This document shows, in pieces, positions 1,634-50,296 of a DNA stretch of 55,796 nucleotides. The notes under the pieces were generated by a model that saw only the letters and a program-made list of their open reading frames with translations, did no database searches and was not told where the DNA came from. Each line of letters opens with the position of its first letter. Positions within the stretch are counted from its first letter, which is position 1. This DNA is from Acidobacteriota bacterium (GTDB lineage: Bacteria > Acidobacteriota > CAIWXX01). The position numbers were made by a program, and so were the translations under genes. Location: positions 1-55,796 of the forward strand of contig JACPPM010000211.1 in assembly GCA_016191015.1 (NCBI GenBank), in the 5' to 3' direction.

Positions 1634-2638
1634 ATGCACGGCACGGTCCAGAAGGTGTTTGTTCTCGGTGCCAATTCCTTCTCTGGTCAGGATTTCGTCG
1701 ACCTCCTTCTGGACGAACCCTCCCGGCAGGTTATCGGTGTGAGCAGGTCTCCAGAACGCTCCGGGCTTTTCCTCAAGTACAAGCAGCGCATCGATTTGTC
1801 GCGCTTTCGATATTTCCAGCTGGACCTGAACAGGGACATGCCGTCTCTGCTGAGTCTCCTTGATTCGGAGCGCCCCGACAGCGTGGTCAATTTTGCGGCA
1901 CAAAGCGAAGTGGGTCCGAGTTGGGAGAGGCCCGAGGATTGGTTTCAAACCAATTGCGTGGCGCTCGCGAAACTGGTCAATCACCTGCGACAGCGCGATT
2001 ACGTTGCCCGTTATCTCCATATCTCGTCGCCCGAGGTGTACGGCACCTGCGTGGGGACGGTTCGAGAGGATGCGTCCCTAAGTCCGAGCACGCCATATGC
2101 TGCGTCCAAGGCAGCCGCCGACCTTCTCCTCCGCACCTACGCAGGCCAGTTCGGATTTCCGCTTCTCACCGTCCGGGCGACCAATGTGTATGGGGCACGA
2201 CAACAGCTCTTCAAGATACTCCCTCGGTCGGTCATCTACATCCGACTTGGGAGGCGCATCCCGCTGCAGGGCGGAGGAGCCGCGATCAAATCGTACATCC
2301 ATATTCGCGACGTATCGCGGGGGGAGCTCGCAATCCTCGAGCACGGCAGCGTGGGGGCGATCTATCATCTCTCGCCCGATCGTGGCATCGCCGTTCGAGA
2401 CGTGGTGCGCCTGATCAGTGTGAGGATGGGCATGCGATTTGAGGATACCACAGAGCCGGCTGATGAACGTCCCGGTCAGGACGCCGCCTACGTCATCGAT
2501 TCCACGCGAGCCCGGAGTGGGCTGGGTTGGTCGCCACGGGTCTCGTTGGAGGAAGGCATCGCCGAGGTTGTGTCCTGGGTTGAGGAAAACTGGGACGAGA
2601 TTCGGAGACAACCCTTGACGTACCAGCATCGCCCCTGA
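1634..2638 (+). CDS. NAD-dependent nucleotide-sugar epimerase/dehydratase (extended SDR)
   Basis: This is a 334-residue extended short-chain dehydrogenase of the GDP-mannose 4,6-dehydratase/nucleotide-sugar epimerase group. The N-terminal beta-alpha-beta motif is GANSFSGQ, lacking the middle glycine of the classical GxxGxxG. ISSPEVYG supplies the active-site serine and YAASK, near residue 155, the catalytic Tyr and Lys. RATNVYG and the YIHIRDV segment match the substrate-binding half. GAGGAG upstream supports the start. It lies 62 bases after the kinase gene in the same direction and probably makes a 4-keto-6-deoxy or epimerised sugar nucleotide. The exact substrate is unknown. Confidence 0.8.
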   Translation: MHGTVQKVFVLGANSFSGQDFVDLLLDEPSRQVIGVSRSPERSGLFLKYKQRIDLSRFRYFQLDLNRDMPSLLSLLDSERPDSVVNFAAQSEVGPSWERPEDWFQTNCVALAKLVNHLRQRDYVARYLHISSPEVYGTCVGTVREDASLSPSTPYAASKAAADLLLRTYAGQFGFPLLTVRATNVYGARQQLFKILPRSVIYIRLGRRIPLQGGGAAIKSYIHIRDVSRGELAILEHGSVGAIYHLSPDRGIAVRDVVRLISVRMGMRFEDTTEPADERPGQDAAYVIDSTRARSGLGWSPRVSLEEGIAEVVSWVEENWDEIRRQPLTYQHRP

Positions 2639-3583: not shown

Positions 3584-4453
3584 ATGATGCCTCCCGATCA
3601 GGCTGTTTTGATAGCCGGCGCGGACGGAATGATCGGGAGCTCTCTGGTGAGACGCTTCCGAGAGGCGGGTTGGACCGTGGTCGAGACGACGCGTCGATCC
3701 GACAGTTGCGGCGACATGCGGGTGATGTTGGATCTCGACGATGATCCCTCGTCCTGGCGCCCGCCGGCGCCAGTTGGACTCGTGATTATCGCGGCAGCCA
3801 TCTGCTCGACCGAAAGATGCCGTCTCGATCCCATCGCAACGTCCCGTGTTAACGTCCGGAACACGGTGGCCTTGGCGAGGGCATCCGCCGAGCAGGGGGC
3901 CTTCGTCATTCTCATCTCGACCAATATGGTGTTTGACGGCAGCCGTCCCGCACGGAAGACTTCGGATCCGGTGGAACCGCAGTCGGAATACGGGCGTCAG
4001 AAAGCAGAAGTGGAGCGCCGACTCCTCGAGCTCGGAGAGCGAGTCGCAGTCATTCGGCTGACCAAAGTGCTGGGCGACCGGCCGAGACTGATCACGGGAT
4101 GGGTAGCCGCGCTGAACAGCGGTCGACCCATCCAGCCTTTCTCCGACATGGTCATGTCTCCCATTCCCGTGCAGTTCGCCGCGGAGGCTATTCTCAATAT
4201 CGGCCTCAATCAGGTGCCTGGAATATCACATGCCTCCGGCGATCGGGACATCACATACGCGGATGCAGCCACTCACATCGCAGCGGCACTCGGTGCCGAC
4301 CGCAGCCTGGTTCAGCCGATGTCCGCACTTGGGGCTGGCCTCCCTATCGACTGCCTCCCGAAACATACGACGCTCGACATGAGTCGTCTCACCAAGATCT
4401 GTGGCCTTCGTCCGCCGTGCGTCTGGGATGTCATCGACAGGGCGATCCGATGA
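3584..4453 (+). CDS. RmlD-like sugar-nucleotide reductase
   Basis: The 289-residue protein resembles dTDP-4-dehydrorhamnose reductase and related NADPH-dependent reductases. Seen are an N-terminal GADGMIGSSL nucleotide-binding loop, LISTNMVFDG (the serine position) and YGRQK near residue 136 as the catalytic Tyr-x3-Lys. Together with the SDR at 1634-2638 it could complete a 6-deoxyhexose pathway by reducing a 4-keto sugar nucleotide. RmlA, RmlB and RmlC are not in the window, so dTDP-rhamnose is only one option. Two adjacent ATG codons make the exact start ambiguous by one residue. Confidence 0.75.
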   Translation: MMPPDQAVLIAGADGMIGSSLVRRFREAGWTVVETTRRSDSCGDMRVMLDLDDDPSSWRPPAPVGLVIIAAAICSTERCRLDPIATSRVNVRNTVALARASAEQGAFVILISTNMVFDGSRPARKTSDPVEPQSEYGRQKAEVERRLLELGERVAVIRLTKVLGDRPRLITGWVAALNSGRPIQPFSDMVMSPIPVQFAAEAILNIGLNQVPGISHASGDRDITYADAATHIAAALGADRSLVQPMSALGAGLPIDCLPKHTTLDMSRLTKICGLRPPCVWDVIDRAIR

Positions 4454-4493: not shown

Positions 4494-5768
4494 ATGACCA
4501 AGAAGCTCCCGACCGTCTCGACGTGCATCCCCAACTACAATCATTCCCGCTTCTTGCCCAACGTCATAAGCACCGTCCTCGAGCAGTCCTGCCCGCCCAC
4601 CGAGCTCTTGGTCATCGACGATGGGTCAACCGATGACAGCATCCAGGTCCTGCAGGAATATGGAGACCGACACCCGATCGTCAGACTGGTGCGCAATGAT
4701 CGAAACCATGGTGTCGTGTACACTCTCAATCGCTGCCTCGAGCTGGCGAAGGGCGCCTTCGTTCACTGCCTCGCGGCGGACGACTGGATTCTCCCTGGAT
4801 TTTATGAACGCTCGCTCGCTCTGCTGGCCGAGCATCCGCAATCGGACATCTCGTGCACAACCTGTGTGCAGTTTGAAGATAGCACGCAGACAACCGCCTA
4901 CCCCTTTCATCCCTGGAGCCTCACGCCCCGCTATTTCACACCTGATGAGCTGGTCGGCGTCAAGTCGAACGGTCACATCATCAGCCAGACTTGTCTGATC
5001 CGTCGCTCGGCTCTTTTGGAGGCGGGCGGATTCAGACCTGAGCTGCGATGGCATTGCGACTGGTTTCTCAATTGGGTCGTGGCATTTCGCAGCGGAATCT
5101 GCCACGTCCCGGAGCCTCTCGCGGTGATGCGTCTCCTCTCCACGTCCTATTCAACCGGTACGCGAGCCTGGGAGGAACAGCGGGTTGTTCTCGACCATCT
5201 CCTGCATCTGTTGAAGGATCCCCAGTACCGCGACATTCGTCCCTATTTCTCGCGAAGCGGCATTCTTTTCAGCCTGAACGATCGCCAGGCTGTCGTCCGA
5301 ACTGTTTTGGAGAACCATGAGCTTTGTGATTCAGACACTCGGGGTATGGTGGTGGAGATGCTGGAGCGTGCGTACGGTAGAGACCTGGGTCCGCCGCGCC
5401 AACCAGCCTCAGCTGTCCAGTATTCGTCTGAGTACCTCGGCCCGAAGGTCAGCCGCCTGGTTGACCGGTGGAAGGCGAGTAACCGCAGGGTGGTCATCTT
5501 CGGCGCCGGGGACCACACGGCGAACCTGTTCCAATGGACGACGCTGGCCGACGCTCTGCTCGTGGGCTTGGTCGACAGCAACCCTTCTCTCCACGGCCAG
5601 TGGTATCAGGGTCTTGAGATCACGCACCCTGACCGAATCAAGTCACTTCGTCCCGATGTCATCCTGATCTCCTCCCAGGCCTACCAGGAGGCTATCTACC
5701 AAACCCTCCGTCCCCTCGAGGTCGATGGGATCGAGATCGTCCGGCTCTATGCGACGACCCGGGGATGA
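4494..5768 (+). CDS. Family 2 glycosyltransferase with C-terminal Rossmann-like module
   Basis: The 424-residue protein begins with a GT-A fold: an opening STCIPNYNHSRFL strand, VIDDGSTDDS near residue 41 and LAADDW near residue 95 as the metal/nucleotide-sugar aspartates. From about residue 333 a second domain starts with VVIFGAGDHTANLF, continues with LVDSNPSLHGQW and ends with VILISSQAYQEAIYQTL. This module recurs in the next three genes on the opposite strand. The start at 4494 is preceded by GAGGAGAG; an upstream in-frame start inside the preceding gene is rejected. Its stop lies five bases from the stop of the convergent GT4 gene. Confidence 0.82.
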   Translation: MTKKLPTVSTCIPNYNHSRFLPNVISTVLEQSCPPTELLVIDDGSTDDSIQVLQEYGDRHPIVRLVRNDRNHGVVYTLNRCLELAKGAFVHCLAADDWILPGFYERSLALLAEHPQSDISCTTCVQFEDSTQTTAYPFHPWSLTPRYFTPDELVGVKSNGHIISQTCLIRRSALLEAGGFRPELRWHCDWFLNWVVAFRSGICHVPEPLAVMRLLSTSYSTGTRAWEEQRVVLDHLLHLLKDPQYRDIRPYFSRSGILFSLNDRQAVVRTVLENHELCDSDTRGMVVEMLERAYGRDLGPPRQPASAVQYSSEYLGPKVSRLVDRWKASNRRVVIFGAGDHTANLFQWTTLADALLVGLVDSNPSLHGQWYQGLEITHPDRIKSLRPDVILISSQAYQEAIYQTLRPLEVDGIEIVRLYATTRG

Positions 5769-5773
5769 GCACG

Positions 5774-7456
5774 TCACGGTTCAGAGAGATCATCGCTTCC
5801 GGTCTCGTGAGTTAGTGTTCGTGGCCGGTAGATCCCGGGTCGGACCTGCGAGCTCTCGTAGGCGGACTCTATCTGCGCGACAATCTGGTCAGTCCAGGCG
5901 AGAGATCCGACTGCGAATACCGGTTCGGCATGCGAGACCGCCTCGCTCAGCGGCACCACTCTGATTCCGAGCACATGCCGGCCCCAGAGCGCCGGGTTGG
6001 AATCGACGAAAACGGGGACCTCGATTCCAAAGAGTCGCATTTCTCGCGCCAGCGTCTGTCCGGCCTCCCCGGCACCGTAGATGACGATCGATCGGACGCC
6101 GTTCTTGATCAAGGCCGCCACGAGGGGAGCGAAGGCCGCACGCGGGGCCTTCGCCCTCGCCGCGGCGGCGCCGACTGCACAGAGATCATTGACAGCGGCA
6201 GCGACCAGTCGCAGCCGCTGTTCTGGTGAGAGTCTCCTCCTGCGAGGCATGCCACGCACCTCTGCAAATAATGCTTCCAGACTATCGGCCGCAGCCTCCG
6301 GTTCGAGAAGGCGTTCGACGAAGTCCTTGCCCTGCTCTCCCATCATCCGCCTTGTCTCCGTTGGCATGTGAACCAGCCGGATCATGGCATCCGCCAGGGC
6401 GTCCGGGCTCGCTGATGGCACAAGGAATCCCGCTCGACCGTCCGCGATTAGCTCGTCCGCACTGCAATTGCGTGCGACGATCGCGGGCACTCCGAGCATC
6501 ATCGCTTCGATCACGGTGTTGGGCAGATTGTCGATCAGGGAGGGGAACACGAGACCCATCGCCGACGCGAGAAGCGGGTAGACCCTCTTGTGCGCCACTG
6601 TACCGTGATAGTGCACTCGATCTCTGTGTTGCCCGGCGGAGCCGAGGAGGAGCTCGAGGCAGTCGAGTGGCTGCCCGATGAGGTGGATGTGAACGTTGGG
6701 ACAGCGATCGAAGAAGCGGGGAAGTGCGGCGGCGAGGATGTGGCCGCCCTTGCGCCGATTGATCGCATTCACAAATGCGAGGTACGGCGAAGCGCCGGCC
6801 GTCACCGTTCGACACCACTCTCTGTCCCATTCATCCGAGTGCACGTCCAGGCATGCCGGCGGTCGAATCAGTCGAACGTCCAGGTCCAGGTATTCCCTGT
6901 AGCGGTCGCACAAAAACCGGCTCGGCGCGTAGTAGATGTCGGATGCCGCGATGGCATTCCGCTCCAGCATGAACTCCACATACCACTCCAGCGGAAACGA
7001 CTCGTCTGCGGCCATGTGAACCTCGGCCTTGCGCCAGAGCGGCGAGTAAGAGCTCATGCGCATGACGATGGGCGCGTCGACATCCAGGAAGAGAGCCCCG
7101 AACTGGTAGTTCGTCACCTGGATCGCGTCGAAGGGGTGCCGCTGGTGCACTTGACTCGCCTTGTGGGCGACTCTCCAGGAAGAGGCCAACGACCCCACGG
7201 GTGTCGGGGAGGGAAGCCGCGAGAAGGCGGCCAGGCGCGAGTCGTCGTCAGGCAAGACATGGACCTTGACCCCTTCGATGTGTTCGATCACTTCGTAGTG
7301 AATGGGCAGCCCTTCGGTGTTGCAAAAGACTTCACATTCGTGTCCCCGGCGGACGAGCAGCGGCGCGAGGCGTGTCAGGTAGTTGCCGGCTCCGCTTTCA
7401 TACTGGCCGATTCCAGCATAGCCGTTGGTCAGGAACCCCAGGTGCATCGGCATCAC
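5774..7456 (-). CDS. Family 4 glycosyltransferase with C-terminal Rossmann-like module
   Basis: At 560 residues this is about 100-150 longer than an ordinary GT4. The N-terminal half has the GT-B donor/acceptor signature (FLTNGYAGIGQYE, a glycine-rich loop). The C-terminal lobe carries VFPSLIDNLPNTVIEAM followed by GVPAIVA, the GT4 E-x7-E region. From about residue 455 comes IVIYGAGEAGQTLARE, then VFVDSNPALWGRHVLG and VFAVGSLAWTDQI: the same module as in the neighbouring GT2, methyltransferase and GT4. It is the last gene of the minus-strand asnB operon. It presumably transfers a hexose from a nucleotide sugar to a lipid-linked or protein-linked glycan. Confidence 0.82.
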   Translation of the reverse strand: MMPMHLGFLTNGYAGIGQYESGAGNYLTRLAPLLVRRGHECEVFCNTEGLPIHYEVIEHIEGVKVHVLPDDDSRLAAFSRLPSPTPVGSLASSWRVAHKASQVHQRHPFDAIQVTNYQFGALFLDVDAPIVMRMSSYSPLWRKAEVHMAADESFPLEWYVEFMLERNAIAASDIYYAPSRFLCDRYREYLDLDVRLIRPPACLDVHSDEWDREWCRTVTAGASPYLAFVNAINRRKGGHILAAALPRFFDRCPNVHIHLIGQPLDCLELLLGSAGQHRDRVHYHGTVAHKRVYPLLASAMGLVFPSLIDNLPNTVIEAMMLGVPAIVARNCSADELIADGRAGFLVPSASPDALADAMIRLVHMPTETRRMMGEQGKDFVERLLEPEAAADSLEALFAEVRGMPRRRRLSPEQRLRLVAAAVNDLCAVGAAAARAKAPRAAFAPLVAALIKNGVRSIVIYGAGEAGQTLAREMRLFGIEVPVFVDSNPALWGRHVLGIRVVPLSEAVSHAEPVFAVGSLAWTDQIVAQIESAYESSQVRPGIYRPRTLTHETGSDDLSEP

Positions 7457-7498
7457 GTCGGTCGTCCTCGCCCTTTGTCAGCCATCGATGCATCTCAA

Positions 7499-8590
7499 CT
7501 ACTGTACCGAGAAAATCTCCGGAGCCGCGAGACGTCCCTGATAGGCGTCGCGAATCCTCCTCGAAATCGAGGACGCTGAGGCCAAGGAACCGATTGCGTA
7601 CGCTACGACTCCTCGGTCAGCGGCCGCGTCGATCGAGATGACCTCAAGCCCGTCGATGCTCTGCCCCCACAAACGCTCGTTCGAATCTACGAAACACCTC
7701 ACCGGAGCTCCGATCTCACGAAGCTCGCGCACGAGCAGCCGTCCGTTCTCTCCTGCGCCGTAGACCGCCAGCTCAACGGGCCTGCTGGCACGAACGGCGC
7801 CCAAGAGCCTCCCGAACTGCTGAAGCCTGTCACGCTCCGCCTCCTGAGCCTTTCGGACACGTCCGTAGTCTCCTTGGAGGGGCATCGTCTCCCATGTCGA
7901 AGAGGGTTGCTTCTCGGCGCGAAAGACGAGCAGAAGGGGATGGGGCGAGACAATAGCTTCAGGGCGGAGTGGATTCCACTCCCGAAAATACCATTCGTTG
8001 AAGGACGAGTCACCTACACCCTGATCGGCCACCGTGCAGCCCATTCCGCCGAATCCGTTCACGCCGTAGTAGTCGAAGAACACGGTCGGGCTGAACTGAT
8101 AGAACCCGTGCTCGACGTAGTTCGACATCGGGCTCATGTGAATGATGCGACCGCCGCTCCTGAGCATCCGGTTGATGTTCATCAGAGCTTGCTTGATATC
8201 GAAAATGTGCTCAATGGTCCCCCCATCGACGATAAGCCCGAAGCGACCGATGAGCTCCTCAGGGATGGGTGAGTTCAGGTCCCACATGAAGTCGGGCCTC
8301 TCATACTCAGAGATGTCCAGCGCGTAAACGTCCAGACGCGCCAGTGCCGCCCAGAAAGCTCGATCACTCGTAAAGTGCGCGTATGGTCCATCCCTCCAAC
8401 TGGGGATGTTCGTGCGAACATCGTCGGATACAACAGGCCGTGGCTCCAGGCCATCGGCGCGCATCAGATCCTGAACATCGGCAAGTGTGGCATAGACGCA
8501 TTGACGGCCAAGCGTGAGCACGGGGCCGTCGAACGGCTTCCGCAAATGCTCCCGCACAAGGTATCGGAGCGCAGGTATGGCGAGCCCCAT
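7499..8590 (-). CDS. Methyltransferase-like protein with C-terminal Rossmann-like module
   Basis: The N-terminal 260 residues of this 363-residue protein resemble a class I methyltransferase of the type found in glycan clusters: LIVDGGTIEHIF (post-motif II acidic/HIF segment), MLRSGGRIIHMSP and an aromatic loop. Motif I is degenerate (VLTLGRQCVYAT), so SAM binding is probable rather than proven. From about residue 272 it has AVYGAGENGRLLVRE, CFVDSNERLWGQ and YAIGSLASASSISRRI, the module shared with its neighbours. It lies between two GT4 genes in the same operon (42 bases to one, 78 to the other). Confidence 0.68.
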   Translation of the reverse strand: MGLAIPALRYLVREHLRKPFDGPVLTLGRQCVYATLADVQDLMRADGLEPRPVVSDDVRTNIPSWRDGPYAHFTSDRAFWAALARLDVYALDISEYERPDFMWDLNSPIPEELIGRFGLIVDGGTIEHIFDIKQALMNINRMLRSGGRIIHMSPMSNYVEHGFYQFSPTVFFDYYGVNGFGGMGCTVADQGVGDSSFNEWYFREWNPLRPEAIVSPHPLLLVFRAEKQPSSTWETMPLQGDYGRVRKAQEAERDRLQQFGRLLGAVRASRPVELAVYGAGENGRLLVRELREIGAPVRCFVDSNERLWGQSIDGLEVISIDAAADRGVVAYAIGSLASASSISRRIRDAYQGRLAAPEIFSVQ

Positions 8591-8668
8591 CTCAACCCCC
8601 TTTCAGAGAATGCTGCCTTCCCCCTCGAGCTTCTCGTGATTCCTTGCAACGCATCAACTTCAAGCACA

Positions 8669-10333
8669 CTAGAGAGGCGAAAAGATCCGAGGGATCACAT
8701 TTTCCCTATCATACCGCTTCTGGATGGTTCGTACCATTTCGCCGGCGAAAGCTAGCGACGCGATCGCGAAGGTCGTGGCCCCGCGCTTCACCGCATCCTC
8801 CAGACTGACAACCTCCAGACCCGTAACCACCTTGCCTTGGAGCCGCGGATCCCGGTCTACGAGGTAGAGAACCTCGATCCCGCGCGCGAGGATCTCTCCG
8901 ACCATGATCCGTCCGGCTTCGCCGGCTCCGTACACGACAACGCCGTCGATGCCGTCCTTGCGAAGCCTCTCGGCAACGGCAGCAAGCCTCCGCTGCATGT
9001 CCTGCTTTGGGGCCGGTGCGAGGGGGCTCGTCCCGCCCAAAAAGGCGCAGATATCAGCACAGAGCGCGCGGCCGCGGGCGTGACGATCAAGCGGGGCAAT
9101 CGGCCCATGTTCAACAGCATTTTGGCAGAGGGATACGAAGCGATCGACGGATTCTGTCGCGGAACAGTCTCTGGCAACGGCCACCCGTCCGCGCTCGCCG
9201 AGAGCGCACCTCTCATCGTCACCCATTGTAAGGATCCGGATCATCGCGTCAGCGAGATCGCCGGCGCGATTCGGATGAACCAGCAGACCCGCACCCGATC
9301 CCGTCATCAACTGATCGTGACCCGATTGAGAGGGGGCGATAACCGGGGTCCCGAGAGCCATCGCTTCGATCACGGTATGTGTCTGGCCACCGGCCACCGC
9401 GGGGGCAACAACCCCCCGAGCAGCCTCGACCATCGGGTAGAGTCGTCGCCCCTCCTGAAAACCGTGATAGTGGATATGGCTGCGAAACCCGCCTGACTGG
9501 TCGAGCAGAGCCTCCCATGAGCCCTGATTCAGACCGACCAGATGGATGTGGGCGTCGGGGCACTCGGAGAAGACCCGTGGAAGCGCATCCGCCAGGACAT
9601 GAGCCCCATTCACTCGACTCAGCGGCCCGACGAAAAGCAGGCTCCGTTGATTCCGGATTCCCGTGTCGGTACACCAGGCAGTGTCCCACTCGTCGCGGGC
9701 AGGATCGATCACGGCTGGAGGGGGGATGATCGGCACATGCAGGCCCAGCATTTCGTGCAGTCGCCCTGCGAGCAGAGAGTTTGGCGCATACTGATAAGAG
9801 GCGGTGCGGAGAGCAGCACGCTCGAGCATCTCCGCAACGCTGTCCATGCTTGTCTGCGACAGGCCGTAGGACTGGCGCACCAGCGCGAGGTCGCGATCAA
9901 ACCGAGCTATCATGGGCACGGGCAGGTCAACGAACAGTCCGCTGAACCGAGCGCTGGTTACGTGGATGACGTCGTAGGGACGGCGGGAATGTGCGCTCTC
10001 GAGCGATTCGGCGACGCTCATCGCCGCAGCGAGTCCCTCTCTGATCTCGAAGACGACGGGAAGACGATCGAAATCGGTCGTCTCGTTCGTCATGGGACAT
10101 CCAATGAGGCGGCAGCCGTGTTTCCGGATACCCTCAGAATCGCGGCTCAATTCGTTTTCAGACGCGCAGAGGAAAATGTCGCACGTATGCCCCCGTGTTG
10201 TGAGGAGGCTGGCCATGTGTTGCACATAGCGGCCCAATCCCCCAAAGAAGCCGCATTCAGCGATCTCACTGGTCACGAACGCGACGTGCATCGGGGATCT
10301 CACAACATTCGCTGCGGATTCTGTCTGAGCCAT
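8669..10333 (-). CDS. Family 4 glycosyltransferase with C-terminal Rossmann-like module
   Basis: This 554-residue protein is built like the GT4 at 5774-7456: a GT-B N-lobe (FVTSEIAECGFFGGLGRYV), a C-lobe with VIEAMALGTPVIAPSQSG, and from about residue 466 the module VVVYGAGEAGRIMVGE, LYLVDRDPRLQGK and FAIASLAFAGEM. The two GT4s are clearly paralogous but diverged. The start is uncertain: the ATG at 10,333 overlaps the end of asnB by 34 bases, while the ATG at 10,291 lies just after its stop and begins at MHVAFVTSE, the usual first strand. Neither has a strong ribosome site. Confidence 0.8.
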   Translation of the reverse strand: MAQTESAANVVRSPMHVAFVTSEIAECGFFGGLGRYVQHMASLLTTRGHTCDIFLCASENELSRDSEGIRKHGCRLIGCPMTNETTDFDRLPVVFEIREGLAAAMSVAESLESAHSRRPYDVIHVTSARFSGLFVDLPVPMIARFDRDLALVRQSYGLSQTSMDSVAEMLERAALRTASYQYAPNSLLAGRLHEMLGLHVPIIPPPAVIDPARDEWDTAWCTDTGIRNQRSLLFVGPLSRVNGAHVLADALPRVFSECPDAHIHLVGLNQGSWEALLDQSGGFRSHIHYHGFQEGRRLYPMVEAARGVVAPAVAGGQTHTVIEAMALGTPVIAPSQSGHDQLMTGSGAGLLVHPNRAGDLADAMIRILTMGDDERCALGERGRVAVARDCSATESVDRFVSLCQNAVEHGPIAPLDRHARGRALCADICAFLGGTSPLAPAPKQDMQRRLAAVAERLRKDGIDGVVVYGAGEAGRIMVGEILARGIEVLYLVDRDPRLQGKVVTGLEVVSLEDAVKRGATTFAIASLAFAGEMVRTIQKRYDRENVIPRIFSPL

Positions 10334-12111
10334 TCGTCCAGGAACACCAAGAGCCAGATCGGATTTGGGTTGCCACTGTCGACAATTTCCAGGACGCCTT
10401 CGGGCCGCAGGAGCGCGAAAAGAGGCGACTGGGGATCGGAAAGCCGCTGTCGAACTTCACCGTGGAGGATACCGCCGGGTGCGAACCACCTCTGCAGGGG
10501 GACTCCGAAGCCCATCTTCGGCCGATGGACGAAGTCCTCGGGATAGTATCGCTGGAGAAGCTTCTTGAGGAGGAGCTTGCCTGCGAATTGCCCCGCACCG
10601 TCCCGTGCGATGCTCAAGTCTTCCGGGATCGTAGCGGCGAATTCGAACACCTTCGCGTCGACAAGCGGGGTCCGGACTTCGAGTCCGTGCATCATGCTCG
10701 CGGTATCGACCTTCGTGAGAATCGAGAATGGAAGGTAGGTATGGATATCGAGGGCCTGCGCGATGTGGGCGGGCGTGGAGCCGCGCGCTGCCGAGAATGC
10801 CCGTTCGAATGTCTCGAGGGGCTGGTCCACCACATCGCGGTACTCCGGACGCCAAAGCGCCCGGCGTTGCGAACGCGTTGTCTGCTGTTTGAGAGCCAAC
10901 CAGCTCGGCAGACTTGGCCTGTTCGGGAATGCGCGCTGCTTCCAGGCAGGTTGATCATCCTGGTTGATCCATCGTCTCCACGTCGAATAATCGTTGTAGC
11001 CACCGAACGCTTCGTCTCCACCATCTCCAGAGAGAACCATGGGGACCTCGCGGCGAGCGAGTCGGCTGAGGTAATAGGTCGGCAACGCTGAGCTGTCCCC
11101 GAAGGGCTCGCCATAGTGCTTGACGAGCGATGGTAGGAGTCCCAGGCAATCCGCTCGCACAACCTCTACCCGGTGGGAAGCGTTCCACCGGCCTGCTGCG
11201 ATCTCCGCATACCGGACCTCGCTGAATTCCTCCTCATCGAACCCAATTGTGAAGGCCCGCACCGGCTCGTTGAGGATCTGCGTCATATAGGCCAGGACGC
11301 AGCTGGAATCGATTCCGCCTGAGAGGAAAGCCCCAAAAGGCACATCGGAAACTAGGTGAGCACGGACCGAATCCCTGAGGACGTCGTCGAGTCGATCCAG
11401 CCATTCGGCTTCCGTCCACGCGTGATTGGGCCGGAATTCGACTCGCCAATACTCTCGTGGGCCCTCAGTACGGCCGTCGAACCGGAATGTGATGCTGTGG
11501 CCCGGGGGCAGCTTGTAGACACCTCTGTAGGCAGTCTTCGGAGCGGGGATGTACTGAAGACAGAGATACTGGTCGATAGCGCGAAGATCCAGCTCCGACG
11601 GGAATCCCGGGACGCAGCGCAACGACTGGAGCTCGGAGCCGAAGGCGACGCAACGATCGTTGATCAGGTAATAAAGAGGCTTGATGCCGAGATGATCGCG
11701 TGCGAGGAAGATCTTCTGCTCCGGATTGCTGACCAGGGCGAAGGCGAACATCCCTCGGAATCGGTCCACGCACCGTTCGCCCCATTGCTCGTACCCATGC
11801 ACGATGACTTCAGTGTCCGAATTCGTGCGGAATTGATGACCATGCGCGATGAGCTGACGCCTCAGCTCCCGGAAGTTGTAGATCTCACCGTTGAACGTCA
11901 CCCAGACTTGTCCGTCCTCATTCGAGATCGGCTGGCGGCCCCCTGCCAAATCGATGATCGCCAGCCGGCGGTGACAGAGGCCCGTACCTCCCATCAGCTC
12001 GATACCCTCCCCGTCCGGCCCACGGTGAGCCAAGGCCTTGGTCATGGCGCCAAGAACCTCCGACGACACTTCGGTCCCGTCGATCGCAACCAGCCCGGCG
12101 ATGCCGCACAC
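10300..12111 (-). CDS. asnB: Asparagine synthase (glutamine-hydrolysing) family amidotransferase
   Basis: The 603-residue protein opens with MCGIAGLVA, placing the nucleophilic Cys at position 2 of a class II glutamine amidotransferase domain. HRRLAIIDL and FNGEIYNF are further Ntn-domain landmarks. The synthetase domain has the PP-loop SGGIDSS near residue 264 and a GDGGDEAFGGY loop. The family uses glutamine and ATP to amidate a carboxylate. Inside a glycan operon it may amidate a uronic acid or attached amino acid rather than make free asparagine, but this is inference. It is the first gene of the minus-strand operon and has its own promoter and a leader with a tandem palindromic repeat. 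Confidence 0.88.
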   Translation of the reverse strand: MCGIAGLVAIDGTEVSSEVLGAMTKALAHRGPDGEGIELMGGTGLCHRRLAIIDLAGGRQPISNEDGQVWVTFNGEIYNFRELRRQLIAHGHQFRTNSDTEVIVHGYEQWGERCVDRFRGMFAFALVSNPEQKIFLARDHLGIKPLYYLINDRCVAFGSELQSLRCVPGFPSELDLRAIDQYLCLQYIPAPKTAYRGVYKLPPGHSITFRFDGRTEGPREYWRVEFRPNHAWTEAEWLDRLDDVLRDSVRAHLVSDVPFGAFLSGGIDSSCVLAYMTQILNEPVRAFTIGFDEEEFSEVRYAEIAAGRWNASHRVEVVRADCLGLLPSLVKHYGEPFGDSSALPTYYLSRLARREVPMVLSGDGGDEAFGGYNDYSTWRRWINQDDQPAWKQRAFPNRPSLPSWLALKQQTTRSQRRALWRPEYRDVVDQPLETFERAFSAARGSTPAHIAQALDIHTYLPFSILTKVDTASMMHGLEVRTPLVDAKVFEFAATIPEDLSIARDGAGQFAGKLLLKKLLQRYYPEDFVHRPKMGFGVPLQRWFAPGGILHGEVRQRLSDPQSPLFALLRPEGVLEIVDSGNPNPIWLLVFLDEWLRQNPQRML

Positions 12112-12376: not shown

Positions 12377-12692
12377 TGCCGCGTGCTAAGGGAGTGGGTT
12401 ACCCGTCGCCAATGCTCTGACAATGACGTGGTCAGCGGAGCAAATGGATAGCTATTCCAGAATGTCAATCCCGATAGCACCGGCAGCCGCGCGGGCGTGG
12501 TGGGGTGAGATTGGGCGGGCCTAGCGGACCGTTGCCCGGGCTCGACATCTCACGGCTTGGTCCGATGGGAGCTCCGCGCGTGTCTAAGGCCCTGGCCCGA
12601 ATGCGCCGATTGTAAGATCGGGGGATGAGAATTGCGGGTGCGCACGTACTGCGAGGACATGAGCCGACCAAGGACTTGACAGGGGAGTGACG

Positions 12693-14234
12693 ATGGGGAC
12701 AACTGCGGATCTCGCCCAGGGCAAGATAAGGACTCTCGAGGAATTGGAGCCGGCCATCAGGGAGGAGAAGAATGCCGGCAAGAGGGTGATCCACTGTCAC
12801 GGCGTTTTCGATCTTCTACATGTTGGACACATCAAGCACCTCCAGGCTTCGAGGGACCTAGGCGACATCCTCGTTGTAACGATCACACCGGACCGGTACG
12901 TGAACAAGGGTCCGCATCGCCCTGCCTTCACTGAGCGCCTGCGGGCTGAAGCGCTGGCGGCTCTCTCGACTGTGGACTATGTGGCCGTCAACGCATGGCC
13001 GAGTGCCGTCGAGACCATCAAGCTCCTCCGCCCTCATGTATTCGTGAAGGGGTTCGTCCGGGATGGCGGCCAGCGTGACCACACCGATGCGATTGAAGCG
13101 GAAGAAGAGGCGATCCGCTCGGTAGGGGGACAGCTGATGCTCACCGACGAGGAAACATTCAGCGCCACGAATCTCATCAATCGGAACTTCGATGTCTTCC
13201 TGCCGGATGCCAAGGCATTCCTGGAAAGATTTCGTCAGCACCACACGGCCGAGGAGATGACCGGCCGGCTTCAGGAGATCAGGGAGATGAAGGTCCTCGC
13301 GATCGGCGAAACCATCATCGACGAATATGTCTTCTGTGAAGTCATGGGTAAGGCCAACAAGGATCCGATCCTCGCGGGACGATTTCTCCATTCGGAGAAA
13401 TACGGGGGCGGGATCCTGGCGATCGCCAATCACCTGGCCCCTTTCTGTGATCATGTCGGGCTACTGAGTGTCCTGGGTGAGGTGGACTCGCAGATCGATT
13501 TCATCACCACGAAGCTTGATGGCAACGTCCATGCCCATTTCGTCCGCAAACCGGAATCTCCGACGATCGTCAAACGGCGCTTTTTGCAGGACTACATGTC
13601 GATCAAGCTCTTCGAAATGTATGTCATGCAGAACGAGCAAATGAGCCCTTCGGAAGAAGCGGTGTTCTGCCAGAAGCTCAAGGATCTCCTCCCCCGCTAC
13701 GATGTCGTCGTGGTCGCTGACTACGGGCACGGCCTCTTCACCGAGAGAACCATCGACCTCCTCGCCGAAAGGGCACGATTCCTCGCCGTCAACGCGCAGA
13801 CCAATGCCGGCAACCGTGGGTTCAATTTCATTTCCCGCTATCCGAGAGCCGACTACATATCCATCGATGAGCCCGAAGCCAGGCTCGAGACTCGCAATCA
13901 GAAGGCGGACATCAAGGATCTGATCCTGTCGATTTCGAAGAAAACATCTTGCAAGCGCCTGCTCGTCACCCGCGGAAAGCACGGTGTGTGTTGCTATGAA
14001 GAAGGGCAGGGGTTCTCGGAGGTTCCCGCCTTCGCCGTCAAAGTCGTTGACCGCCTCGGTGCGGGGGACGCGGTCCTTGCGATGACTGCGCCGTGCGCTG
14101 CACTGGGCTTGCCGATGGACGTTGTGGGCTTCATCGGAAATGTGGCCGGGGCGGAAGCTTGTGGGATTCTTGGGAACAAGAGCGGGATCGACCGCGCCAG
14201 CTTTTTCCGCCACATCACCTCGCTGCTCAAGTAG
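12693..14234 (+). CDS. Fused cytidylyltransferase-like nucleotidyltransferase and PfkB kinase (HldE-like, reversed domain order)
   Basis: The 513-residue protein has two domains. Residues 1 to about 180 form a nucleotidyltransferase with GVFDLLHVGH (residues 37-46), VNKGPHRPAF and a VFVKGFVRDGG loop, as in HldE-C, TagD and related enzymes. From about residue 199 comes a ribokinase/PfkB fold starting MKVLAIGETIIDEYVF and ending RLGAGDA (near 454) with the catalytic Asp. E. coli HldE has the kinase first, so the order here is reversed. The expected reactions are phosphorylation of a sugar phosphate at C1 and NDP-sugar formation. I chose the ATG at 12,693, preceded by AGGGGAG; a GTG six bases earlier lies too close to that site. 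Confidence 0.85.
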   Translation: MGTTADLAQGKIRTLEELEPAIREEKNAGKRVIHCHGVFDLLHVGHIKHLQASRDLGDILVVTITPDRYVNKGPHRPAFTERLRAEALAALSTVDYVAVNAWPSAVETIKLLRPHVFVKGFVRDGGQRDHTDAIEAEEEAIRSVGGQLMLTDEETFSATNLINRNFDVFLPDAKAFLERFRQHHTAEEMTGRLQEIREMKVLAIGETIIDEYVFCEVMGKANKDPILAGRFLHSEKYGGGILAIANHLAPFCDHVGLLSVLGEVDSQIDFITTKLDGNVHAHFVRKPESPTIVKRRFLQDYMSIKLFEMYVMQNEQMSPSEEAVFCQKLKDLLPRYDVVVVADYGHGLFTERTIDLLAERARFLAVNAQTNAGNRGFNFISRYPRADYISIDEPEARLETRNQKADIKDLILSISKKTSCKRLLVTRGKHGVCCYEEGQGFSEVPAFAVKVVDRLGAGDAVLAMTAPCAALGLPMDVVGFIGNVAGAEACGILGNKSGIDRASFFRHITSLLK

Positions 14235-14253
14235 GATTGACTGAGGAGGAGAC

Positions 14254-14877
14254 ATGGCACGCCGTGGGTGGCATGGGATCGTCGCCGAGTACGCGCAGCT
14301 TCTGGGTGGCCTCTCGATGCGGGATCGGCGCGGCAGGGAGCTCGGGCCTGACGCAGGTCTGGTCCTGTGGCGAAAGCTCACCGTCGCTCTGCGAAGAAAG
14401 AAAGGGACCATCTACCTGATCGGAAACGGAGCGAGCGCGTCGATGGCCAGCCATGTGGCGGCAGACCTGGCCAAGAATGCACGCATCCACACCGAGGTCT
14501 TCTCAGACCTCTCCCTCATCACGGCGATCTCGAACGACATGGGGTACGAAAACGTCTTTGCCGAACCTTTGCGCCGCCGCAGTCGCCCGGGGGACATGCT
14601 CGTCGCCATAAGCAGCTCGGGAAGATCTCCAAACGTGCTCTCCGCCACCGACCTTGCAGCGTCACGGCACCTGACAATCGTCACACTTTCCGCTATGGAG
14701 CCCGGTAATCCCCTGCGGTCGATGGGGGACCTGAATGCCTATGTCGCAGCTCCGACCTACGGCAAGGCCGAGAGCTGCCATGCCACGATCCTTCATAGCT
14801 GGATGGACCTCGTCGTCATCGACGGAGCCGGGCGGGCGTCGACCCATCTCGGACAGCCGCAGGCGGAGAGGTCGTGA
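14254..14877 (+). CDS. SIS-domain sugar-phosphate isomerase, GmhA-like
   Basis: The 207-residue protein matches sedoheptulose-7-phosphate isomerase in length and landmarks: LIGNGASASMASHVAADL from about residue 56, ITAISNDMGYENVF, and GDMLVAISSSGRSPNVL, the phosphate-binding serine loop. GmhA converts sedoheptulose 7-phosphate to D-glycero-D-manno-heptose 7-phosphate, the substrate of an HldE kinase, and the gene lies 20 bases downstream of an HldE-like fusion. It has a GAGGAGGAG ribosome site and its stop overlaps the next GTG start. Related SIS isomerases act on other sugars, so the exact heptose is inferred. Confidence 0.8.
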   Translation: MARRGWHGIVAEYAQLLGGLSMRDRRGRELGPDAGLVLWRKLTVALRRKKGTIYLIGNGASASMASHVAADLAKNARIHTEVFSDLSLITAISNDMGYENVFAEPLRRRSRPGDMLVAISSSGRSPNVLSATDLAASRHLTIVTLSAMEPGNPLRSMGDLNAYVAAPTYGKAESCHATILHSWMDLVVIDGAGRASTHLGQPQAERS

Positions 14878-15872
14878 GTTACGAGATGCTTTTCGACCGA
14901 TCCCGACTGAGGATCGAGCCTCTTGCCGAGAGGACGCACGATCTCGGCCGGGAAGCTGTCCGGGAGTTGACGGACACGGGATGCGAGAACGGGGATCTTG
15001 CCGCCGTAGCCGATCGTATTCATTCGGCTCGGCAGCGCGGTTCCTCGGTTGTACTGATGCTCGGTGCGCATGTGCTGCGGGATGGCGTCCAGCGTTACGT
15101 CATCGACTGGATGGAGCGGAATCTGGTTACGTGCGTCGCCATGAATGGCGCCGGCGTGATCCATGACTACGAGCTGGCGCTGATCGGCGCCACTACCGAG
15201 AGCGTCGCGCGCTACATCTCTGAAGGGCAGTTCGGGCTTTGGAGAGAGACTGGCGTGATCAATGACATCGTGACATCAGCCGCGCGAGCGGGGTTGGGGA
15301 TGGGAGAGGCGGTTGGCAGGGCAATCGAGGAGGGCCGGCTGCCGCATCGGGATATCAGCGTGCTCGCGGCCGGCGTCCGCACCGGCACCCCCGTCACCGC
15401 TCATGTCGGCATCGGATACGACATCGTTTTCCAACACCCCAATTGCGACGGCGGTGCATACGGAGCCACCAGCTATCGCGATTTCCTCCGGTTCGCTCAC
15501 ACGATTGAAAGCCTGGAAGGTGGCGTGCTCATGAATTTCGGTAGCTCGGTGATGGCCCCGGAGGTTTACCTGAAGGCGTTGGCCATGGCTCGCAATGTTG
15601 CCAAGCAGGAGGGGCGGAAGATCGCCCATCTGACGACGCTTGTGTGCGATTTGCAGGATCTCCCGGCAGACTACCATCACGAACCGGTCCGAGGCAGCGC
15701 AGCCTACTACTTCCGGCCGTGGAAGACGATGCTCGTTCGCACGGTGGCAGATGGCGGCGAGAGCTTCTATGTGCGTGGGAGGCATGCGGAGACCATACCC
15801 CAGCTCTGGTCGGCCCTCTCCCGACTGACCGCCGCTCAGCCAACTGCGACGAACAAGGACGGCGCACGGTGA
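14874..15872 (+). CDS. Deoxyhypusine synthase-like protein, catalytic lysine not conserved
   Basis: This 332-residue protein resembles the deoxyhypusine synthase superfamily: GAHVLRDG, CVAMNGAGVIHDYELALIG and a CDGGAYGA segment matching the DGSDSGA region. In true DHS this segment is soon followed by the lysine that carries the aminobutyl intermediate; here the corresponding RFAHTI has no lysine. Hypusination is therefore unlikely and bacteria lack the eIF5A target. The Rossmann-type NAD site may be kept for another reaction on a sugar phosphate or amine. It starts with GTG overlapping the isomerase stop and ends overlapping the next GTG, so it is translationally coupled within the sugar operon. 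Confidence 0.65.
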   Translation: MSYEMLFDRSRLRIEPLAERTHDLGREAVRELTDTGCENGDLAAVADRIHSARQRGSSVVLMLGAHVLRDGVQRYVIDWMERNLVTCVAMNGAGVIHDYELALIGATTESVARYISEGQFGLWRETGVINDIVTSAARAGLGMGEAVGRAIEEGRLPHRDISVLAAGVRTGTPVTAHVGIGYDIVFQHPNCDGGAYGATSYRDFLRFAHTIESLEGGVLMNFGSSVMAPEVYLKALAMARNVAKQEGRKIAHLTTLVCDLQDLPADYHHEPVRGSAAYYFRPWKTMLVRTVADGGESFYVRGRHAETIPQLWSALSRLTAAQPTATNKDGAR

Positions 15873-16888
15873 ATTGGCGCGAGAACCCCAACGGGTTCCA
15901 ATCCGTGCTCGTGACGGGAGGAGCTGGGTACGTGGGCAGCGCCCTGATCCCGCAGCTGCTCAGCGACGGTTACGACGTGAAGGTGATCGACCTGTTCTGG
16001 TTCGGGGATGATGTTTTCGGTGAATCGCACAAGCACCCGCGCCTCCGGCTCGCACGACTGGATATCCGAAACACAGAGCAGCTGAAGCGGGAGTTGAAGG
16101 GCACCGATGTGATCATCCATCTGGCCTGCATATCGAACGACCCCAGCTTCGAGCTTGACCCGAATCTCTCGAAGTCCATCAACTACGACGCCTTCGTGGG
16201 ACTCCTCAGCGGTGCGATCGAATCGGGTGTCCGCCGGTTCATATATGCGAGCTCGTCGAGCATCTATGGGGTGAAGGAAGAGAAGGACGTTCGCGAGGAC
16301 TCGCCTCCATTCCCTCTGACGGACTACTCGAAGTACAAGCTGGCGTGCGAGCGGCAGCTCCTGGACGTCAACCCTCGCGGAATCGAGCGGGTGATCGCAA
16401 GGCCTGCAACCGTTTGTGGGTATGCTCGCCGACTGCGCTTGGATTTGACGGTCAATATTCTCACGATGCACGCCCTAGTGAATCGCAAGATCCGTGTCTT
16501 CGGCGGAAAGCAGCTCAGGCCGAATCTGCAGATCGCCGACATGGTGCGGGCCTATGAGACATTGCTATCTGCCCCCGCCGAAAAGATCGACGGCCAGGCA
16601 TTCAACATCGGCTACCAGAACCGCTCAGTCGAGGAGCTTGCGCTCCTGGTGCGAGAGACGATCGGTGACCCTGGCATTGCCATCGAACACGTGCCGACCG
16701 ACGACGGCCGGTCTTACCACATCAATTCCGACAAGATCGGCGCCGTGTTGGGATTCAAGCCGGAGCACACGATCGAGGACGCGGTCCGGGATCTGGCGGA
16801 GAAGTATCGCGCCGGATCGATTCCGGATCCCATGACAGACCGTCGGTACTACAATATCAGGACCATGCAGGCCTTGAAGTTCATTTGA
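15869..16888 (+). CDS. NAD-dependent nucleotide-sugar epimerase (extended SDR)
   Basis: The 339-residue protein begins near VLVTGGAGYVGSAL, a classical GxxGxxG, with ASSSSIYG and YSKYK supplying the Ser-Tyr-Lys catalytic set and a RPATVCG substrate-binding segment. It belongs to the UDP-glucose 4-epimerase/dehydratase group. In a pathway with GmhA- and HldE-like enzymes it could take the place of an HldD-type heptose epimerase, though it is not recognisably HldD. The start is the GTG at 15,869, overlapping the preceding stop as GTGA; longer upstream reading is out of register with conserved sequence. Confidence 0.8.
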   Translation: MNWRENPNGFQSVLVTGGAGYVGSALIPQLLSDGYDVKVIDLFWFGDDVFGESHKHPRLRLARLDIRNTEQLKRELKGTDVIIHLACISNDPSFELDPNLSKSINYDAFVGLLSGAIESGVRRFIYASSSSIYGVKEEKDVREDSPPFPLTDYSKYKLACERQLLDVNPRGIERVIARPATVCGYARRLRLDLTVNILTMHALVNRKIRVFGGKQLRPNLQIADMVRAYETLLSAPAEKIDGQAFNIGYQNRSVEELALLVRETIGDPGIAIEHVPTDDGRSYHINSDKIGAVLGFKPEHTIEDAVRDLAEKYRAGSIPDPMTDRRYYNIRTMQALKFI

Positions 16889-16921
16889 GAGTGGATCGCA
16901 AGGGAAGCGGCGGATGACGAT

Positions 16922-17740
16922 ATGTTGAGTCACGACGAGCTCACCGCCACCGCACGCCGCATCCGCGGGTTGCTCGTGCAGATGTCGCACAGGGCGGGAG
17001 CTCCTCACCTGGGATCTTCGCTTTCATGCGTGGATATTCTCGTTGCCAGCTACTTCGCAGCGTTGCGAATTGATCCACAGCGGCCCGACGCCGTCGATAG
17101 GGACCGGTTCATTCTGAGCAAAGGTCACGCAGTGACAACTCTGTACGCTACCTTGGCCCTGCGGGGGTTCTTCCCGGTGGAGCAACTTGTGGACTTCGGG
17201 GTGGCAGGAGGACACTTGCCGGAGCACCCGAGTCCGGGATGCGTTCCGGGACTGGAGGCGGCGACGGGGTCGCTCGGGCATGGTCTCTCGCTCGGGATCG
17301 GGATGGCACTGGCCTCGAGGATTCTTGGGGTTTCCTACCGCGTCTACGTGACGCTGAGCGATGGGGAGTGCAACGAAGGGTCTGTCTGGGAAGCGGCCCT
17401 CATGGCGCCGGCCAAGGGGCTGGAGAATCTCGTGGTCATTGTGGACTTCAATAAGTGGCAGGCGACGGGACGGAGCACGGAGGTGCTGGCACTGCAACCG
17501 CTCCGCGAGAAGTGGGAGGCCTTTGGCTGGAGCGCGTTGGAGGTAGACGGGCATGATATGGATGAGCTGGCGAGTGCCTTGACGCGCGTGCCCGATGGGA
17601 GCCGGAAACCAGTCGCCATCATAGCCCACACGGTTAAGGGCAAGGGGATCTCGTTCATGGAGGATGACAATAACTGGCACTATCGAATTCCAAATCTCTC
17701 GGAGGTCGAGGCGGCGCTCCGGGAGCTGGGGCACCCGTGA
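16922..17740 (+). CDS. Transketolase-like N-terminal (TPP-binding) subunit
   Basis: The 272-residue protein equals the N-terminal half of transketolase. It shows ILSKGHAVTTLYA, TGSLGHGLSLGIGMAL and GDGECNEGSVWEA followed by the N of VDFNKWQ, the TPP/Mg motif GDG-x(~26)-N. The gene overlaps the C-terminal subunit gene as GTGA, so the two chains are made together. Transketolase makes sedoheptulose 7-phosphate, the precursor for GmhA, which fits the neighbours. Split transketolases are common in archaea and in secondary or sugar clusters. Confidence 0.88.
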   Translation: MLSHDELTATARRIRGLLVQMSHRAGAPHLGSSLSCVDILVASYFAALRIDPQRPDAVDRDRFILSKGHAVTTLYATLALRGFFPVEQLVDFGVAGGHLPEHPSPGCVPGLEAATGSLGHGLSLGIGMALASRILGVSYRVYVTLSDGECNEGSVWEAALMAPAKGLENLVVIVDFNKWQATGRSTEVLALQPLREKWEAFGWSALEVDGHDMDELASALTRVPDGSRKPVAIIAHTVKGKGISFMEDDNNWHYRIPNLSEVEAALRELGHP

Positions 17741-18675
17741 GAGACGCTTTCGCAAAGGAGCTCACGGATCTTGCGGGCCAGGATGATCGAATCGTGTTGC
17801 TCTCCGGGGACATTGGAAACCGGATGTTCGACGATTTCAAGGGGCGCTTCCCGGACCGCTTCTTCAACTGTGGTGTCGCCGAGGCCAACATGACCAGTGT
17901 GGCCGCCGGGATGGCGATGTGCGGACTGCGACCCGTCACCTACACCATCGCATCCTTCAATACGGTTCGGTGCCTGGAACAGATCCGGCTCGACGTGTGC
18001 TACCACCGGCTGCCCGTCCTGATCGCCGGCGTCGGTGGCGGGCTCTCCTACGCCGAGAACTGTGCCAGCCACCTTTCGTGCGAGGACATCGCGATGTTGA
18101 GAGTTATTCCCAACATGACGGTCATCTGTCCCGGCGATGTACATGAGGTCCGCGGAGCGCTCCGGGCGGCCCTCCTGCATGATGGTCCTGTCTACCTGCG
18201 GCTGGGCAAGAAGGGGGAACCTGCCGTCCACTCCAGCGAGCCGCCCTTCGTGATCGGGAAGGGGATCGTCATCCGACAGGGGCAGGAAGTATGCCTGCTG
18301 AGCACCGGCAACGTGCTCCCTCTGGCGGTTCGATCGGCAGACGCCTTGGAGGCTCTCGGCATTTCGACTCAGGTGGTCAGTTGTCATACCGTCAAACCGC
18401 TCGACCATGACCTCCTGGCCGAAGCTTTTTCCCGCTTCCGCCTCGTCGCCACGCTGGAGGAGCACTCGGTGCTTGGGGGCCTCGGGGGGAGCGTCGCGGA
18501 GTGGGTGACTGATCATGAACCATCGAGGGCCGTGCTCCTCCGGTGCGGGACTGCCGACGCCTTTCCGCCAGGTGCCGGACACCAGGAGTACATGCGGCAG
18601 ATCCATGGCCTCGTCCCAGGAGATATCGTCCGGAGGGTGCAGCAGCTTTTGAAAGCGAGCGTTTCAGCGAGGTAG
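17737..18675 (+). CDS. Transketolase-like C-terminal (pyrimidine-binding) subunit
   Basis: The 312-residue protein covers the Pyr and C-terminal domains: LLSGDIG, an FFNCGVAEANMTSVAAGMA segment with the glutamate that activates TPP, and a C-terminal STGNVLPLAVRSADAL regulatory-domain start. It pairs with the upstream subunit to make a complete transketolase-like enzyme. It may supply sedoheptulose 7-phosphate or transfer a two-carbon unit to a nucleotide sugar to make a branched sugar; the sequence does not decide. It starts with GTG in overlap. Confidence 0.86.
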   Translation: MRDAFAKELTDLAGQDDRIVLLSGDIGNRMFDDFKGRFPDRFFNCGVAEANMTSVAAGMAMCGLRPVTYTIASFNTVRCLEQIRLDVCYHRLPVLIAGVGGGLSYAENCASHLSCEDIAMLRVIPNMTVICPGDVHEVRGALRAALLHDGPVYLRLGKKGEPAVHSSEPPFVIGKGIVIRQGQEVCLLSTGNVLPLAVRSADALEALGISTQVVSCHTVKPLDHDLLAEAFSRFRLVATLEEHSVLGGLGGSVAEWVTDHEPSRAVLLRCGTADAFPPGAGHQEYMRQIHGLVPGDIVRRVQQLLKASVSAR

Positions 18676-28158: not shown

Positions 28159-28645
28159 GAACGGCGGCATCGAACGACTGCGTGTGAGGGCGGGTCCACA
28201 GGTTGACCACCTGCGCCGCGCGCGATGCGAATGCTGGCAACCCAGCTTTGACACTGGGCGTGAATCCCTCGCACACGGTCTCCGGCCGCTCGACTTCGAG
28301 CGCGAGGATGCGTATCTCGCCGGGCATCTTCAACCCCAGGCGGCGGCCCATCTCGAGCACCTCCGGGATCCCGGCGTAGTGCGGCGATGGAGATACGATC
28401 TTTTCCAATTCGTCGGGCGATAGCTCGATCACAGTGCCGGGCGCGCACCGACCCGTCACGACGGCGTCGAGGAGCAGGACGCGGTCGTATCCCTCGATAT
28501 ATTCGAGCAGGGCGAGCCCCGCTTCCGATGACTCGATGACATCGACCTCAGCCGGAAGCGTCGGCCGGAGCAGGCGCGCCGCGGCTGGACCGGCGCCGTC
28601 GTCGCCGAGAATGTCGTTCCCCAGCGCGAGGACCAGGGTCTTCAT
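28127..28645 (-). CDS. [NiFe]-hydrogenase maturation endopeptidase
   Basis: The 172-residue protein has the HycI/HyaD/HoxW pattern: LVLALGNDILGDDGAG at the start, LLLDAV with the second metal Asp, and PHYAGIPEVLEMG with the metal-binding His. It removes the C-terminal tail of the large subunit after nickel insertion. It is the last gene of the hydrogenase operon and its ATG overlaps the large-subunit stop (ATGA). A longer in-frame opening upstream runs through the large-subunit gene and is rejected. Confidence 0.88.
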   Translation of the reverse strand: MKTLVLALGNDILGDDGAGPAAARLLRPTLPAEVDVIESSEAGLALLEYIEGYDRVLLLDAVVTGRCAPGTVIELSPDELEKIVSPSPHYAGIPEVLEMGRRLGLKMPGEIRILALEVERPETVCEGFTPSVKAGLPAFASRAAQVVNLWTRPHTQSFDAAVLTGTARAETQ

Positions 28646-30153: not shown

Positions 30154-30156
30154 GGC

Positions 30157-31131: not shown

Positions 31132-31633
31132 GGGCGATCACCTCCTTCTCCCCCGGCTCCTCGGCCATCTCGCGGTCCCACTCACGTCGGCGCTCGGGCA
31201 GGCGGAGCGGGCCGAGCCCGCGAACCTTTTCCACCATGTCGTTCATGACCGACTTGACCTTCTCGCCCTCCGAGGCCGAGATCCACTCGAGTCTGAATCG
31301 GGCGCCCTCGATGCCCATCTCCCGCAGCATGCGCCGCAGCATCCGCTCGCGCCTCAACGCCTTGTAGTTGCCCTCGATGTAGTGGCAGTCGCCGGGATGG
31401 CACCCGCCGATCAGCACGCCGTCTGCCCCTCTGGCGAACGCGTCGAGGACGAACTGCGGATCGACTCGGCCCGAGCACATCACGCGGATGATCCGGACGT
31501 TCGGAGCGTACTTCATGCGAGAGACCCCTGCCAGATCCGCAGCCGTGTACGTGCACCAGTTACAAAAGAAAGCTACGATCCGTGGCTGCCAATCGCCGTT
31601 TCCAGCTATCTTGGTTCGCTCTTCCGTGTTCAT
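31124..31633 (-). CDS. mvhD: MvhD-like iron-sulfur connector subunit
   Basis: The 169-residue protein has AFFCNWCTYTAADLAG, IRVMCSGRVDP and GGCHPGDCHY, the cysteine pattern of the [2Fe-2S] MvhD/FrhD-like family. It links the hydrogenase small subunit to HdrA. It follows hdrA by 24 bases, with a GAGGGGGG ribosome site. Confidence 0.88.
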   Translation of the reverse strand: MNTEERTKIAGNGDWQPRIVAFFCNWCTYTAADLAGVSRMKYAPNVRIIRVMCSGRVDPQFVLDAFARGADGVLIGGCHPGDCHYIEGNYKALRRERMLRRMLREMGIEGARFRLEWISASEGEKVKSVMNDMVEKVRGLGPLRLPERRREWDREMAEEPGEKEVIAHV

Positions 31634-31657
31634 GAACCCCCCTCTGACCGCCGGCTC

Positions 31658-46190: not shown

Positions 46191-46215
46191 CCTGGTGTAG
46201 GCAAGGAGAATGGCG

Positions 46216-46425: not shown

Positions 46426-46459
46426 CCGGCTGCCACTCCCGGCCGCGTCTGGGACGAAT

Positions 46460-50287: not shown

Positions 50288-50296
50288 GCGAGGCGA

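Follow-up and report, generated by a model that had tools for sequence, protein, structure and literature searches.

Why would neighboring enzymes of unrelated type end in the same kind of domain? The question is raised by one locus of the window, the 55,796-nucleotide stretch of Acidobacteriota DNA analyzed here, in which a GT2 glycosyltransferase, two GT4 glycosyltransferases (GT4a and GT4b) and an atypical methyltransferase (MT) are encoded side by side (Table 1). The initial annotation had proposed that these four adjacent enzymes, of three kinds and on two strands, share a C-terminal domain, and all four copies of it were confirmed. Each copy forms a tail of ~110 residues.

Table 1. Genes of the glycan locus and their C-terminal tails (positions in the window)
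Feature	Position	Strand	Description
GDP-mannose 4,6-dehydratase/epimerase-type enzyme	1634..2638	+	PF16363, E 3.2e-44; same region
RmlD-type NDP-sugar reductase	3584..4453	+	PF04321, E 1.7e-33; no tail; just upstream of GT2
GT2 glycosyltransferase	4494..5768	+	PF00535 and type B tail; ORF open from 4401
GT2 tail, type B	5421-5768	+	Rossmann-like; FGAGDHT ... LVDSNP; PF08484 Methyltransf_14-like
GT4a glycosyltransferase	5774..7456	-	type A tail
GT4a tail, type A	5774-6148	-	IYGAGEAG ... FVDSNPALWG
MT, atypical class I-like methyltransferase	7499..8590	-	type A tail; weak Methyltransf_12/11
MT tail, type A	7499-7840	-	VYGAGENG ... FVDSNERLWG
GT4b glycosyltransferase	8669..10333	-	type A tail; GT4a paralogue
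GT4b tail, type A	8669-9013	-	VYGAGEAG ... LVDRDPRLQG
Asparagine-synthase-type amidotransferase	10300..12111	-	PF00733, TIGR03108/TIGR01536; no tail

The amidotransferase is the first gene of a minus-strand run that also holds the three type A carriers, and an alternative GT4b start near 10291 would remove the overlap between the two genes. GT2 and GT4a are convergent, with stop codons 5 bases apart. Translation of GT2 probably starts at the ATG at 4494, in agreement with the coordinate first assigned to it. The catalytic parts of GT2, MT and the GT4 enzymes show no mutual similarity, with alignment scores within the range of shuffled sequences; the sole homologous pair among the four cores is GT4a and GT4b, which are full-length paralogues of 35% identity. 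The MT core has a GRQ-like motif near the position expected for the SAM-binding GxGxG. This pattern recurs, more or less closely, in 12 MT-core homologues of the phylum, for which Methyltransf_11/12 matches are likewise only weak.

Elsewhere in the window, a heptose-type sugar pathway-like run (12687-18675, plus strand) includes an HldE-like protein with its adenylyltransferase part before its kinase part, a SIS isomerase, an NAD epimerase and a split transketolase. On the minus strand at 28642-35939, a NiFe-hydrogenase-like large subunit, a 20-kDa NADH oxidoreductase subunit, a large multi-domain FAD/Fe-S protein and a CCG protein make up a heterodisulfide-reductase/hydrogenase-like set. The region at 43613-51956 (plus strand) resembles a class II lanthipeptide cluster: it has a C39-peptidase ABC transporter, a LanM-like protein (DUF4135 and LANC_like) and a thermolysin-type M4 protease.

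Tail similarity was assessed by pairwise Smith-Waterman alignment against 2000 shuffles. Pairs among the GT4a, MT and GT4b tails, which are 36-43% identical, scored 171-194 against a shuffle maximum of 59 (p < 1e-15). The GT2 tail scored 61-76 against the other three, with a shuffle maximum of 49 (p about 1e-5 to 2e-7). Leave-one-out HMMs searched against the six-frame translated window recovered the held-out tail each time (GT4a 7e-25, MT 2e-21, GT4b 4e-25, GT2 2e-6), while the best unrelated ORF never fell below E 0.012, and no fifth copy was found within the window. The motif originally described is common to the four tails in outline, but not in every residue: GT2 has FGAGDHT in place of YGAGExG, and MT has VDSNE in place of VDSNP. 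Each type A tail keeps the GxGxxG loop and the VD; the third glycine of GxGxxG is missing from the GT2 tail. At the DNA level, similarity between tails is confined to fragments of 28 bases or fewer, which argues against recent copying by duplication or gene conversion.

The view that all four enzymes carry the same module needs to be qualified. There is one related fold, but the tails are of two subtypes rather than one subfamily. Type A, the three minus-strand tails, has the common pattern YGAGExG ... VD ... L.G ... G, and type B, the GT2 tail, has FGAGDHT ... VDSNP ... ISS. A single clade of all four tails, as one homogeneous module would form, was rejected by the AU test (p-AU 0.0002), whereas a clade of the three minus-strand tails was not (p 0.275). 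The tree sets no branching order among the GT4a, GT4b and MT tails. It places the GT2 tail nearest to a C-methyltransferase tail from genome G109, and groups type A with N-terminal modules of FkbM-type methyltransferases and with WbpM-type domains (93/87). In hhalign comparisons, the WbpM-type domain profile matched type A with a probability of 98.6% and type B with 97.4%.

Tail structures were predicted using AlphaFold from small alignments (11 rows), giving pLDDT 84.8 and pTM 0.77 for GT4a and pLDDT 83.0 and pTM 0.78 for GT2. Both models have a small Rossmann-like fold with the identical element order H-E-H-E-E-H-E-H-E. Together with an hhalign profile-profile probability of 98.8% between the subtypes, this bears out the claim of a shared fold, against which unrelated folds or four separate families would have counted. 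In Foldseek searches of the PDB, the GT2 tail superposed on the KijD1, TcaB9 and MtmC C-terminal domains (TMq 0.74-0.78, rmsd 2.0-2.5 A), with further matches to 3nkl and Rex. For the GT4a tail, 3nkl was the top match, and its other matches included Rex, VioB, perosamine N-acetyltransferase, WbaP and MtmC, with TMq up to 0.60. The resemblance to sugar C-methyltransferases noted in the initial annotation is accordingly strong for GT2, but weaker for GT4a, MT and GT4b, whose neighbors are FkbM/WbpM modules, 3nkl, Rex and VioB.

As small Rossmann-like modules, the tails belong to a superfamily that takes in PF08484, PF13727, the PglD/VioB N-terminal domain and the Rex ligand domain. Against the PF08484 gathering cut-off of 23.5 bits, GT2 scored 34.9 bits (E 1.7e-8), GT4a and GT4b fell below it at 18.5 and 13.6 bits, and no match was reported for MT. 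The fold of the PF08484 domain of TcaB9, KijD1 and MtmC is matched by the GT2 tail at TM 0.75-0.78 and by the GT4a tail at 0.50-0.60. Unlike in those systems, the domain in the window sits on glycosyltransferases and on an unrelated methyltransferase that lacks the zinc-binding N-terminal domain. None of the four is a whole sugar C-methyltransferase, since GT2, GT4a and GT4b have no methyltransferase domain and MT belongs to a different, atypical family. Type A resembles PF13727 (CoA_binding_3, of WbaP and WbpM/PglF; reference structures 3nkl and 8t53) in its profile, its top structural match and its YGAGEAG motif, although Pfam reported no PF13727 match for the window proteins. Type A is C-terminal on soluble GT4 and MT enzymes, whereas the PF13727 domain lies between a membrane bundle and the catalytic domain. 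All four proteins match the first 55-80 positions of TIGR03570, the PglD/NeuD/VioB N-terminal domain (E 3e-4 to 6e-4), at 19-21 bits against a curated cut-off of 160.8 bits. Membership in the PglD/NeuD acetyltransferases was rejected because this cut-off is missed and no left-handed beta-helix acetyltransferase domain follows the tails. The ligand domain of the Rex redox-sensing repressor was the best PDB profile match of the four window tails (E 0.0009). The window enzymes lack the helix-turn-helix of Rex, whereas tailed winged-helix proteins found elsewhere have a MarR-like one. A tail acting as an oxidoreductase in its own right was set aside, as any substrate domain is missing.

Type A is rare. 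Among about 400 genomes of the phylum it was found only in this genome and in G195, which belongs to another class; it was absent from G001, the only other genome of the window's class in the set. Its carriers in G195 are a radical-SAM protein and a putative glycosyltransferase, the latter named by reading its sequence (a DxD-like motif), as its catalytic part has no Pfam family. The two G195 tails are sisters (100/99) on unrelated enzymes, within a type A clade (98/91) that spans GT4, MT, radical-SAM and putative glycosyltransferase carriers from two genomes of different classes. Other genes stand between these two carriers, and ~1.2 kb from the radical-SAM gene a type B tail occurs on a MarR-like winged-helix protein. 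In G014, two adjacent methyltransferase-like proteins also have sister tails (100/99). The pattern of similar tails on different neighboring enzymes therefore recurs beyond the window, in loci that were chosen for having several tails, so that their counts are not an unbiased frequency.

Homologues of the cores were recovered without tails. The MT core has homologues in 12 of 396 genomes searched (E 1e-18 to 1e-37), and all 12 are without a tail. The same holds for one homologue of the GT4a core, from G025, and for two of the GT2 core, from G182 and G258. Tail-free best homologues of the cores, together with a type A clade that crosses enzyme families, identify the tail as a module that is mobile between unrelated enzymes, and in two genomes type A tracks its locus more closely than its enzyme. 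A search for plasmid or viral spread of the tails gave no matches. Outside the phylum, a pattern-based scan of 84,980 species genomes gave matches to WbpM-type proteins and to a small number of C-methyltransferases. Type A tails were not among them, which is weak evidence of their absence given that the patterns would miss diverged members.

The wider superfamily occurs elsewhere on FkbM-type methyltransferases, GT2, GT4 and other enzymes, as tails or as N-terminal copies. In G014, locus L046 (G014:C19:6000-21855) encodes five proteins with N- or C-terminal copies of the module (a GT4, two methyltransferase-like proteins and two of unknown type). In the window's own genome, a superfamily tail ends an 826-residue protein of contig C157 (L048:7015-9492, minus strand), which also has a radical-SAM domain and an MptE-like region, and another ends a 226-residue winged-helix protein of contig C21. 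MarR-like winged-helix proteins with superfamily tails form a family, with members at L153:4436-5167 (+), L049:8295-8972 (+), L051:6555-7190 (+), L158:9475-10191 (-) and L162:8209-9045 (+). In this genome (G000) and in G001, the winged-helix gene is followed by genes that read as PseG-like and PseI/NeuB-like. These tailed MarR-like proteins are possibly Rex-like sensors of a sugar nucleotide.

We hypothesize, with a probability of roughly 0.5, that the tail is a nucleotide- or nucleotide-sugar-sensing regulatory module that may dimerize. A nucleotide or nucleotide-sugar would be bound via the GxGxxG loop and the acidic end of strand 2, and the module would probably self-associate. Enzymes of one polysaccharide pathway would then respond to one shared metabolite, for feedback or coordination, with the tail itself not catalytic, and for GT2's type B tail the ligand would be a different, though related, one. 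This reading is drawn by analogy: where the ligands of the nearest relatives are known, they are nucleotides or nucleotide-sugars, and the nearest folds are 3nkl, NADH-sensing Rex, VioB with a TDP-sugar, TcaB9/KijD1 with dTDP ligands, and WbaP. Superfamily tails on winged-helix regulators, in this genome and in others, form a Rex-like arrangement that fits a sensor. In WbaP, the PF13727 domain is stabilized by UMP, UDP and UTP; UMP inhibits the full-length enzyme with an IC50 of 4.1 uM, for which this domain is the likely site, and the domain makes most of the dimer interface (PMC10942596). The initial annotation suggested scaffolding or the binding of a common intermediate, either of which is plausible; the WbaP work points rather to nucleotide sensing combined with dimerization. 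WbaP is a distant relative of the window tails, and these ligand data are its own. The restriction of type A to two genomes and the missing third glycine in GT2 both count against sensing.

The dimer interface of WbaP would also suit a docking function, in which type A tails homo- or heterodimerize and assemble GT4a, MT and GT4b into one multi-enzyme complex. That one gene run holds three type A tails, and that tails follow the locus in two genomes, is consistent with this idea. We nevertheless consider it unlikely, though a serious rival to sensing, since intervening genes separate the two carriers in G195, GT2 in the same region has a different subtype and would need a different partner, and the Gly-rich loop and acidic residue are kept although docking does not need them. 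Conservation of this kind also weighs against inert hitch-hiking, by which a common mobile Rossmann domain would have been recombined onto neighboring genes with no shared role. The superfamily is indeed widespread on many glycan enzymes, but the tails keep the Gly-rich loop, VD and LxG...G despite their divergence to 36-43% identity, which indicates constraint, and their DNA bears no mark of recent copying; this explanation appears very improbable.

The tail could instead anchor substrate, as half of its own enzyme's active site that holds a nucleotide-linked sugar, in the manner of the sugar C-methyltransferases. The PF08484 domain of C-methyltransferases is part of a catalytic enzyme and, in TcaB9, reportedly helps to hold the substrate. 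The close fit of the GT2 tail to the TcaB9, KijD1 and MtmC C-terminal domains, PDB entries of which contain dTDP ligands, favors such a role, and an MT acting on an NDP-sugar might make use of it. We consider it about as unlikely as docking: GT2 and GT4 folds already have a donor nucleotide site, homologous cores manage without tails elsewhere, and one subtype on GT4, MT, a radical-SAM protein and a further glycosyltransferase fits poorly with enzyme-specific active-site geometry.

Returning to the sensing module, a stronger form of it can be envisaged, in which each locus has a private allosteric code: a single sensor module, tuned to one metabolite of the pathway, placed on unrelated enzymes and, at some loci, on a transcription factor as well. 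We offer this extension tentatively, as a possibility that falls well short of an even chance.

The superfamily itself is already known on C-methyltransferases, acetyltransferases, dehydratases and phosphoglycosyl transferases. A locus-coherent subtype on unrelated enzymes, below Pfam cut-offs or unreported for GT4a, GT4b and MT, seems to be a new variant. Within open-access full texts, coverage of which is incomplete, we found no description of locus-coherent tail sharing and no literature on PF08484 outside methyltransferases.

How feedback controls the assembly of bacterial polysaccharides is poorly understood. The occurrence of near-kin type A tails on unrelated enzymes, in the window and in G195, hints at a single control or docking signal common to a whole pathway. 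If the tail is a docking tag, it would offer a natural route to glycan multi-enzyme complexes. If it is a sensor, it would serve as a handle for finding the controlling metabolite and as a sequence signature of enzymes that belong to the same pathway. Should the allosteric code prove true, a whole pathway would be switched by a shared domain instead of a shared regulator.
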